From Desulfobacterales bacterium (GTDB lineage Bacteria > Desulfobacterota > Desulfobacteria > Desulfobacterales > JAAELO01), in contig JAAELO010000681.1 in NCBI GenBank assembly GCA_024226555.1, positions 1-63,796 on the forward strand: a stretch of 63,796 bases of DNA. Reading direction: 5' to 3'. A program made the position numbers and the translations under genes. Shown piece by piece: positions 50,620-54,753 of the stretch (its first letter is position 1; each line of letters starts with the position of its first letter). The notes under the pieces are model-generated. The model was not told the DNA's origin, made no database searches, and saw only the letters and a list, made by a program, of their open reading frames with translations.

Positions 50620-50694
<75 letters not shown>

Positions 50695-50705
50695 ATTTTA
50701 ATTTA

Positions 50706-50780
50706 GGCGGCTTGGCCAAGTGGTAAGGCGACGGCCTGCAAAGCCGTTATTCTCCAGTTCAAATCTGGAAGCCGCCTCCA
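50706..50780 (+). tRNA. tRNA-Cys (anticodon GCA)
   Basis: GGCGGCT acceptor pairs with AGCCGCC before TCCA. The anticodon arm ACGGC-CTGCAAA-GCCGT carries GCA, and the T arm is CCAG-TTCAAAT-CTGG. 75 nt including CCA. Confidence 0.97.
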
Positions 50781-50795
50781 AAACATAATATATGA

Positions 50796-50870
<75 letters not shown>

Positions 50871-50880
50871 ATTTAATTTA

Positions 50881-50955
50881 GGCGGCTTGGCCAAGTGGTA
50901 AGGCGACGGCCTGCAAAGCCGTTATTCTCCAGTTCAAATCTGGAAGCCGCCTCCA
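50881..50955 (+). tRNA. tRNA-Cys (anticodon GCA), second copy
   Basis: Same sequence as the copy at 50706, with encoded CCA. Last gene of the Gly-Cys-Gly-Cys cluster. No clear terminator hairpin was seen after it. Confidence 0.97.
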
Positions 50956-52150: not shown

Positions 52151-52183
52151 GAACCTCTAATAATTAGGATTTTCTATTGAAAT
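52151..52183 (+). repeat. Solo repeat-family end, overlapping the 3-prime end of dus
   Basis: GAACCTCTAATAATTAGGATTTTCTATTGAAAT matches the left 33 bases of the family, with no matching right end. The dus stop codon and its last codons (FNRKS) lie inside it, so the element fragment now ends the gene. Confidence 0.75.
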
Positions 52184-53141
52184 CTTTTGTTTTTTTTGGT
52201 TTCCATGCGGGATTGCTATCAAAAAACTCTTCAATAACAACATTATAAGTTTTCTCTGTTCTTGTTTTTTGAATTTTCTTTAAAATTTTTTTTCCATTTG
52301 GGAAAGACTGTGTAAGAAAAAACCAAACTCCTTTCATCCTGTCCAGATAGTGAGCTGGGCCACTCATCCCATTCCTGTACGTATTTGCAAGATCATCATG
52401 GAACATTTTAATAACTGAAAGGGTATTTTTATGTTTTATATTTTTTATTTCAGCTGGTAAAAAAGGATTACACATTACGCCTCTTCCTATCATCCAGCTT
52501 GATATATTTGTAAATTTACAATTGAGATCATCGAAGATTTCTTTATTATAAATATCTCCATTATATACAATTTTTTTATTAAACTTCCTGTGGGCTTCAT
52601 CAAAGATATCAATATTTACAGATCCATCATAATTTTGATCGCCTGTCCTTGGGTGTATAATGATCTCACTTAATGGTAATTTGTTTAATACAGGAATTAA
52701 ATCAAATATTTCATTATGGTTATAATAACCAGTCCTTATTTTTACAGATAATTTCTGATCTATTTTTGATAATATTTTATCGAGTAATTTTTCTAACGAG
52801 TAAGAGTCAGATAATAGAGCTGATCCCTTATTTTTTGTCACTACATTTTTGTGGGGACAACCAAGATTAAGGTTTAATTCATCATAACCAAGGTTACCAA
52901 TATATTTTGCAAGGTGTATAAAATCATCGTGATTATTAGATAAAATCTGGGGGACAATCTTCATTGATGAGTTATTTTCAGGAAGGATATCTTTGATCCT
53001 TGCCTTGTTAATCTTATGCTCCCCCATTGTTGTTATAAATGGAGTTACAGCAAGATCAATTCCTTCAAAATGCTTTGAATAAACTGATCTGTATATATAA
53101 TCTGTAAATCCTTTTAATGGAGCGAGATATAACTCAATCAT
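52164..53141 (-). CDS. dus: tRNA-dihydrouridine synthase
   Basis: Flavoenzyme reducing uridines in tRNA. The 325 residues start IELYLAPLKGFTDYIYR (FMN-binding entry), followed by NLNLGCPHKNV with catalytic Cys95, then VKIRTGYYN, IHPRTGDQNYDG, VYNGDI and MIGRGVMCNPFL (phosphate-binding site). It has the usual Dus order, but the C-terminal part is short. Both ends are touched by repeats: the ATG lies in the duplicated ATGA next to copy M, with AGAGG of the element end at optimal spacing (7 nt), and the stop is inside the solo end at 52151-52183. Confidence 0.92.
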   Translation of the reverse strand: MIELYLAPLKGFTDYIYRSVYSKHFEGIDLAVTPFITTMGEHKINKARIKDILPENNSSMKIVPQILSNNHDDFIHLAKYIGNLGYDELNLNLGCPHKNVVTKNKGSALLSDSYSLEKLLDKILSKIDQKLSVKIRTGYYNHNEIFDLIPVLNKLPLSEIIIHPRTGDQNYDGSVNIDIFDEAHRKFNKKIVYNGDIYNKEIFDDLNCKFTNISSWMIGRGVMCNPFLPAEIKNIKHKNTLSVIKMFHDDLANTYRNGMSGPAHYLDRMKGVWFFLTQSFPNGKKILKKIQKTRTEKTYNVVIEEFFDSNPAWKPKKTKDFNRKS

Positions 53142-53361
53142 TGGGAAACCTCTAATAATTGTATTTTGATTGAATACAACGTTTATAAAAGCTTTAAGTT
53201 TTATAAAATCTCTGCATAAAAAAAAATAACGAGCCGATTCGTTTTTAAAAAAGATTTAATTTTATAAACATACTACAGTTTTTTTTTGAATAATTCTGTT
53301 GTTTTGCTTTTTTAAAAAGAACTTAAGTAGTTCGATCAAAGGGCTGTTATTAGTGATTCCC
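53142..53361 (+). repeat. MITE-like palindromic element, long form, filling the rlmD-dus junction (copy M)
   Basis: 220 bp with ends GGGAAACCTCTAATAATTG and GCTGTTATTAGTGATTCCC, including the long-form interior CGTTTATAAAAGCTTTAAG and AACGAGCCGATTCG. Flanked by TCAT on both sides (53138-53141 and 53362-53365), i.e. ATGA on the coding strand: start of dus on one side, stop of rlmD on the other. Confidence 0.92.
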
Positions 53362-54753
53362 TCATCTCTTTTTTCTAAGCTTTGCAACAACTTCAATATG
53401 GTAAGTATGAGGAAACATATCAACAGGCTGCATTTCAATTACATCATAATCATCCTTCATGAGATCAATGTCCCTTGCAAGTGTGGATGGGTTGCAAGAT
53501 ACATACACAATCTTTTCAGGAGCCATCTTTAAAACCTGCTTAACAACATTTTTATGCATACCTACTCTTGGAGGGTCAATTATCATTACATCAGGTTTTG
53601 ATTCCATGGAAGGTAGAACATCTTTAATATCACCTAATATAAATTTACAGTTATCAACACCATTTTTCTCACAGTTCTTTCCGGCATCTTTTACTGCACT
53701 TTCTATAATCTCTATACCCAAAACCTCTTTGGCAGATGCAGATAACCAGATAGGGATGGTTCCTGTTCCACTATAAAGATCAAGAACAACTTCATTACCG
53801 GTTAATTCGGCATAATCTTCAACACATTTATAAAGGAGTTCAGCTCCTTTTGTATTAGTTTGAAAAAATGAGTTCGCTGATACTTCAAATTCATAGTTAC
53901 CAAGTTTATCTTTTATAAATGAATCCCCATAAAGGATTTCTTCAGATTCACCAATTGAGACACCAGCTTTTCTTGCCGTTATATTATTAATTACAGATGA
54001 GATATTAGGAAATTTTTCTACAAGAATATCTGTAAGGGGTTTTAAAACTTCAGGTTTGTTCTCTTTTGTAATAATATTCACCATCCACTTATCATAGGCT
54101 GCTGAATATCTTAACATTAAAAAACGCCAAAAACCTTCATGACTCTTTAAACCATAAGCAGGAACACCAGAATCTATAATATACTGACGAACTGTTTCTA
54201 ATATTTCATTTCCATCTTCAGGTTGAATATAGCATTTTTTTATATCTAAAACTTTGCTAAATGTACCGGGAACATGAAGTCCTATTCCAAATCCTTTTTT
54301 AATACCTTCCTGTCCTAATTCCTCAGGCATTAACCATCTCTCATCAGAACATGAAAACTCCATTTTATTTCTATAATTATAGATCTGTCCTGTGCTTATT
54401 GTTGGATGCACTTTTACATCTTTAACTTTCCCGATGTGTTCAGTAGTATCTTTTACCTGTTTGGTCTTATAATCAAGCTGCTTTTCATAATCCAGAAACT
54501 GCCATTTGCAGCCACCACAATAACCACTATAACTACAAGGCGCGTTTTTTCTATATTCAGATGGTTTTATTATTTCAAGAACTCTTGCTTCTGCAAATTG
54601 CTTTTTTTTCTTTGTAATTAAAACTTTAACAACATCACCAGGAATTGATTTATCTACAAAAACTGCCAGATCATTTATTTTGGTAAATCCCTTACCACCA
54701 AAAGCTACGTCTGTAATTTCAACTTCAAATGCCTTGCCTCTTTTTACACTCAT
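53362..54753 (-). CDS. rlmD: 23S rRNA (uracil-C5)-methyltransferase, RlmD/RumA type
   Basis: It has 463 residues from the ATG at 54751-54753, chosen because GGGA lies 8 nt upstream and the product then starts at the TRAM domain (MSVKRGKAFEVEITDVAFGGKGF). An open extension of 14 codons lacks family support. The 4Fe-4S motif CSYSGYCGGCKWQ follows TRAM, as in RumA. The SAM-binding domain has LDLYSGTGTIPIWLS, DPPRVGMHKNVVKQ and the catalytic VSCNPSTLARDIDLM. It is the first gene of a minus-strand run with dus and the acyltransferase. The TGA stop lies in the target duplication of copy M. Confidence 0.93.
   Translation of the reverse strand: MSVKRGKAFEVEITDVAFGGKGFTKINDLAVFVDKSIPGDVVKVLITKKKKQFAEARVLEIIKPSEYRKNAPCSYSGYCGGCKWQFLDYEKQLDYKTKQVKDTTEHIGKVKDVKVHPTISTGQIYNYRNKMEFSCSDERWLMPEELGQEGIKKGFGIGLHVPGTFSKVLDIKKCYIQPEDGNEILETVRQYIIDSGVPAYGLKSHEGFWRFLMLRYSAAYDKWMVNIITKENKPEVLKPLTDILVEKFPNISSVINNITARKAGVSIGESEEILYGDSFIKDKLGNYEFEVSANSFFQTNTKGAELLYKCVEDYAELTGNEVVLDLYSGTGTIPIWLSASAKEVLGIEIIESAVKDAGKNCEKNGVDNCKFILGDIKDVLPSMESKPDVMIIDPPRVGMHKNVVKQVLKMAPEKIVYVSCNPSTLARDIDLMKDDYDVIEMQPVDMFPHTYHIEVVAKLRKKR

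Follow-up and report, generated by a model that had tools for sequence, protein, structure and literature searches.

A MITE-like element at an rlmD-dus junction: probable insertion in an ATGA overlap and a candidate ribosome-binding site at the element end

The rlmD-dus junction

The window analyzed here is a stretch of 63,796 nucleotides that forms one whole contig (C680) of a 7.69-Mb Desulfobacterales genome in 904 contigs (29.7% G+C). On its minus strand, a gene of the 23S rRNA uracil-1939 C5-methyltransferase family (rlmD, 53362..54753, 463 aa from the ATG at 54753) is followed by a gene of the tRNA-dihydrouridine synthase family (dus, 52164..53141, 325 aa, PF01207). The RlmD assignment was made using TIGR00479, which scored 370.2 bits against a cut-off of 183.55. 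Read on the minus strand, rlmD ends with ..AAG AGA TGA (TGA stop at 53362-53364) and dus opens with ATG ATT (start codon at 53139-53141). Between the two genes lies copy M (53143..53361, plus-strand orientation), a member of a MITE-like repeat family with a length of 219 bp and 25% G+C, which has stops in all six frames and a length well below that of a transposase gene. Its left terminal repeat, GGGAAACCTCTAATAA (53143..53158, plus strand), carries one extra A relative to the family sequence GGGAACCTCTAATAA, and its right terminal repeat is TTATTAGTGATTCCC (53347..53361, plus strand).

Copy M is flanked by two copies of ATGA on the minus strand (TCAT on the plus strand). The right copy (53362..53365) directly adjoins the element end (CCC followed by TCAT) and contains the rlmD stop. 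The left copy (53138..53141) contains the dus start and is parted from the GGG of the element by an extra T at 53142 (plus strand), the left junction reading TCAT, then T, then GGGAAACC. An earlier note on this DNA had located these two copies, with the stop and the start inside them, and was correct to the base, without mention of the extra T. It had also described AGAGG seven bases before the dus ATG, and this was confirmed (53149..53153, minus strand, CCTCT on the plus strand), the Shine-Dalgarno-like motif lying 7 nt before the start codon. Upstream of this ATG, no stop interrupts the dus frame for 38 codons into copy M, yet ATG, GTG and TTG are absent there, and the first usual start is therefore the ATG of the TCAT copy. 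Among 114 codirectional entries in a first sample (in which matches on both strands were counted twice), copy M lay closest to its two neighbors when both distances were added up.

Scanning of the window with Rfam at gathering thresholds identified four consecutive tRNA genes on the plus strand (50620-50952) and nothing else. A promoter within copy M was considered and rejected (shuffled sequences gave 1.4 promoter-like matches and M two weak ones, each on the plus strand), no terminator was found in the element, and its fold z-score was -1.01.

A repeat family with 4-bp target duplications

At least 44 BLAST matches to copy M were obtained from its own genome, with the best 40 of 1158 first-look candidates being scored. 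A profile built from the copies located 360 separate places in 1.76 Mb, or roughly 200 per Mb, a density that is possibly high given that most contigs in this sample were picked for good matches to M. The terminal inverted repeats, GGGAACCTCTAATAA and TTATTAGAGATTCCC, were both recovered within the allowed errors in 241 of the 249 full-model copies, and 217 of these 241 fell into the length bins from 120 to 199 bp. In 120 of the 241 copies with both terminal repeats, the two flanks shared exactly 4 bp, compared with 6.3% of shuffled flank pairs, and in three they matched over 5 bp. The commonest duplications (TTAA, TATA, TAAA, ATAA, TTAT and TTTA) accounted for 85 of the 120. In the remaining 121 copies the flanks were not identical, and allowing one extra left base brought 11 of them into agreement; given that the same was true of 2.3% of shuffled pairs, most but not all of these 11 cases should be real.

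Two insertions had uninterrupted counterparts in the same genome, and removing one 4-bp copy yielded a gapless junction in each of three alignments. The first (C821:117932-118061, TAGA) is an insertion inside a sibling element and was aligned to two siblings, and the second (C352:8748-8876, ATTA) lies in a stretch that recurs without the insert some 0.4 kb away at 78% identity. These three uninterrupted pairs were picked among 454 listed rows, mostly nested or neighboring copies. The family inserts precisely, duplicating 4 bp of target, and is MITE-like in being short and without a transposase gene, in its terminal inverted repeats and fixed-length target duplication, and in its many dispersed copies.

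Across 194 genomes of the order, the family was found in one, the source genome itself (up to four best candidates per genome were scored). An autonomous parent was sought among 13 repeat pairs spaced 0.5-3.5 kb apart with equal 4-bp flanks; ten ORFs from eight of these pairs resembled ordinary genes, and no transposase was recognized among them by eye. Transposase searches of the genome located PF01609 at six places, PF13546 at one and PF13701 at two, together six distinct places, and PF13751 gave no match. None of these nine loci (six distinct places), several of which are on short contigs with ends possibly missing, had family repeats on both sides, and one of them (L419) had a single terminal-repeat match with two mismatches. 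Across the four Pfam families searched, transposase genes are few (six distinct places) compared with the hundreds of non-autonomous copies in the part of the genome that was read.

History of the insertion

Removal of copy M, the extra T and one TCAT leaves the minus-strand sequence ..AAGAG ATGA TTGAG.., in which rlmD and dus overlap by 4 bases. RlmD proteins of other genomes aligned as far as residue 459-463 of 463 in all 52 high-scoring rows, and their stops fell 0-6 residues past the aligned part in the 29 loci that were read. For Dus, 26 alignments among the 27 good rows began at residue 2-4, and a contig end truncated the other one. Because the homologues align to the native ends, both gene ends look native, and neither rlmD nor dus appears to have been cut or extended. 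With a native rlmD end and a native dus start, removing M together with one TCAT would rebuild an ATGA overlap, although the ancestral overlap itself is something that we infer. Overlaps of 4 bases are found in 33 of the 782 codirectional gene pairs in this genome.

In the history that we propose, a non-autonomous, MITE-like element would have entered this overlap through a 4-bp staggered cut made by a transposase acting in trans. Repair would then have duplicated ATGA, so that rlmD kept its TGA stop in one copy and dus its ATG in the other. Given that overlap and duplication would both be 4 bp in length, a single register would leave both genes whole. Such an insertion, with a 4-bp duplication that kept both genes intact, is the best reading of the junction and is, judging from the sequence, very probable. 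It is the history that the earlier note had put forward, and the family duplications, the two precise insertions and the native gene ends uphold it; the element does not fit it to the last base, since the extra base at the left end of M is a departure from the exact 4-bp register and counts against it. An alternative 5-bp reading (TCATT/TCATC, with one base changed) leads to the identical ancestral junction.

The left end, being out of exact register and having a terminal repeat with an extra A, would also suit an element that entered a short rlmD-dus spacer other than an ATGA overlap, with small later changes at the left end producing the present TCAT. We consider this highly improbable, since the right copy abuts the element exactly and contains the native stop, and since fewer events are needed to explain four matching bases plus an extra one, or five with a single change.

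To look for an empty site, Dus and RlmD were searched in 58 genomes of the order (57 in addition to its own). Around 29 Dus loci of other genomes, the nearest 1.5 kb held no rlmD gene, and inspection by eye revealed no genome among the 57 others with both genes close together. A further scan covered a genome contig collection, in which the closest Dus relatives (the best 80 of 566 loci) were mostly labelled Desulfobacterales or Desulfobacteraceae, with identities of at most 48%, from which we take the present genome to be a remote member of the order; the flanks of these best 80 loci (up to 5 kb, less at contig ends) contained no rlmD. The rlmD-dus pairing may be lineage-specific, given that the genes were not neighbors in any relative examined.

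The same result bears on a different origin of the junction, in which one family copy already lay at the rlmD stop, another lay just ahead of dus, and the two genes were brought together when these copies recombined; copy M would then be chimeric and the TCAT match a product of chance. Genes that are not neighbors in any relative examined (the 57 other genomes and the 80 loci) would be expected under such an event, the 121 of 241 copies without an exact duplication are compatible with it, and element ends recur both close to stops (24 within 1 nt) and close to starts (eight within 6 nt). The TGA stop and the ATG start also have two letters in common, so the ATGA match is partly forced once the gene ends abut the element and is less informative than a match of four free bases. 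Against recombination, the duplication length of the family fits at this junction with one extra base only, and by our rough estimate the coincidence of gene ends and outer letters would be at least ten times less likely than one insertion. We therefore regard a recombinational origin as improbable and retain the insertion into an ATGA overlap.

How often such an insertion should occur was estimated from the target preference of the family. ATGA is a below-average target, with a weight of 0.31 of the mean window, and 52 of 241,068 permissible windows lie in ATGA overlaps, which gives 0.02-0.05 copies expected among the 241 and, by rough scaling, approximately 0.1-0.3 genome-wide. Because the expected number is so low, the single case is a mild coincidence, without any sign of targeting, and no target preference for overlaps was seen in the sample.

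Seven distinct places in the sample sequence, copy M included, have an upstream stop (at most 11 nt away) and a downstream start (at most 5 nt away) both near element ends. At C214:29120-29312, the flanks TTAA and TTGA match at three of four positions, and closing the site would rebuild TAATG or TGATG, a 1-base overlap. Two further places (C821:21503 and C851:3160) resemble this case, with flanks lacking an exact match, and another (C821:127840) probably consists of two consecutive copies. Within this small set of junction insertions, the rlmD-dus case is the clearest, without being unique in kind.

Element ends were also found at gene stops more generally. In total, 24 ends lay within 1 nt of a stop (nine at -1, nine at 0 and six at +1) vs 7.5 expected, an excess beyond target preference in the sample contigs (e.g., C198:99671 and C456:5278). 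At -1, the stop would take in the first base of the element, with TA lying outside and G inside, and this was seen in one instance, C851:3160. Additionally, the stops of twelve called ORFs lie 12 nt within an element (e.g., C398:49365 and C89:11201); the consensus terminal repeat there, GGG AAY CTC TAA, seems to supply these ORFs with a new C-terminus.

A putative ribosome-binding site at the element end

On the dus strand, the left terminal repeat of copy M reads TTATTAGAGGTTTCCCA and places AGAGG 7 nt ahead of the ATG. With about 220 nt now separating the rlmD stop from the dus start, AGAGG probably serves as the ribosome-binding site of dus, as the earlier note had suggested. Inspection of the rlmD end ahead of ATGA by eye revealed no core motif. 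Core motifs (GGAG, GAGG, AGGA, AAGG) were present at -18 to -5 in 55% of 1297 genes of this genome and at -40 to -29 in 7%, and GAGG is common at the spacing found before dus. On the strength of this difference, a GAGG so placed is an ordinary ribosome site in this genome.

Across the family, 245 termini face a start, 106 of them with GG and 139 without, the starts in the sample, like its gene ends, having been called by a simple caller (for starts, coding score plus start codon) and not taken from annotation. At 0-6 bp from the start, seven GG termini were counted vs one non-GG terminus (p = 0.023), at 7-14 bp three vs two, and at 9-30 bp nine vs 24 (9/33). The GG contrast between 0-6 bp and 9-30 bp, which was chosen after seeing the data, gave p = 0.003, or p = 0.007 when M was excluded. 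When ATGs within 6 bp of the end were considered, a coding frame was opened in 4 of 17 cases at GAGG ends vs 1 of 18 at GAGA ends in the sample (p = 0.18), in 7 of 66 vs 1 of 44 outside the sample (p = 0.14), and in 11 of 83 vs 2 of 62 when pooled (p = 0.042). The outside set, which is incomplete, consisted of 60 loci (30 for each type of end), 20 further regions and 60 places chosen for a near ATG (34 GAGG, 26 GAGA).

These counts have to be weighed against the possibility that AGAGG is merely terminal-repeat sequence and that dus is translated by another route, which would be compatible with the same insertion history. ATGs within 10 bp were similarly frequent genome-wide at the two types of end (100 matches for GAGG, 106 for GAGA), and those opening a coding frame at the 30 loci each did not differ (3 of 37 vs 2 of 31). 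Folding also counts against a ribosome site, since AGAGG is predicted to be mostly paired: 77-91% in folds of seven lengths before dus, with a pairing value of 0.83 that lies above approximately 89% of 120 control genes. However, the coding starts nearest the element favor the GG end. Another insertion (C847:29161, duplication ATGA) is instructive, in that a native AAGGA now lies ahead of an orphan ATGA, and a 264-aa frame starts at the other ATGA copy, behind the AGAGG of the element and not behind the native AAGGA. We consider translation of dus by another route to be somewhat unlikely. The earlier note's claim of a ribosome-binding site for dus is thus supported by the GG-end bias near starts and weakened by the predicted pairing; that AGAGG would drive dus translation is plausible, with moderate family-level support. 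That the motif replaced a lost coupling, as the note also held, is conjectural.

Two observations were made alongside. From the orphan ATGA behind the native AAGGA at C847:29161-29297, an open frame runs into the element for 50 codons or more. At L358 (C330:9628-9647), an element end with AGAGG lies 5 nt ahead of the ATG of another Dus-family gene in this genome (match at C330:9678-10394).

A hairpin that restores coupling, in which a terminal-repeat stem would hide AGAGG until a ribosome at the rlmD stop opened it, was also considered. The stem was predicted with very short flanks only (best arm-arm probability of 1.0 at 5 nt, 0.32 at 20 nt, and 0 at 60 and 90 nt), and blocking the 5' arm left AGAGG still paired in the fold prediction. 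The idea was rejected because the stem needs very short flanks and because blocking the arm fails to free AGAGG.

The rlmD-dus insertion alone is one event of an ordinary kind. A broader reading, which we offer tentatively as a possibility, is that this MITE family carries a portable ribosome-binding site at one terminus. Its target duplication would rebuild stop and start codons at operon junctions while AGAGG took over initiation, allowing near-costless entry into coupled gene pairs and converting coupled to independent translation at a dozen genes or more. If so, a mobile element can enter the tightest operon junction with neither gene broken, because the duplication length equals the overlap length, and the family would illustrate how coupled translation can become independent through an element. 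Its roughly 200 places per Mb of sequence read would also make it a natural insertion series in which to measure what coupling, and ribosome sites carried by elements, are worth.

A literature search, in which most subscription journals lay outside the coverage, showed among the papers listed no MITE that entered a start-stop overlap or supplied a ribosome site; this is not a claim of absence. Insertion sequences of the IS5, IS701 and IS1380 kinds generate 4-bp AT-rich target duplications. The M family resembles them in its 4-bp duplication with T and A at the duplication ends, and differs in that none of the six transposase places in this genome is flanked on both sides by M-family repeats.

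A closer comparison is MITEAba12 of Acinetobacter, which is reported (PMC6382973) to have 9-bp target duplications in 40% of 90 copies, terminal repeats of 16 bp, 22 copies in one named genome and ISAba12 as the proposed parent insertion sequence. Both families are short and AT-rich, lack known coding sequence and have imperfect terminal repeats (approximately 15 bp here, 16 bp there), and in both the duplications are found in only part of the copies (120 of 241 here). In contrast to MITEAba12 as portrayed there, the M family duplicates 4 bp instead of 9 bp, occupies hundreds of places in 1.76 Mb, has an AGAGG-bearing terminus that tends to adjoin starts, and had no parent insertion sequence among the transposase places examined.

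For termination-reinitiation at ATGA or TGATG overlaps, reinitiation is expected to fall with stop-start distance, as reported in PMC6728339. The reconstructed rlmD-dus junction would be an overlap of the kind described there, and it differs from such overlaps in now being split by about 220 bp.
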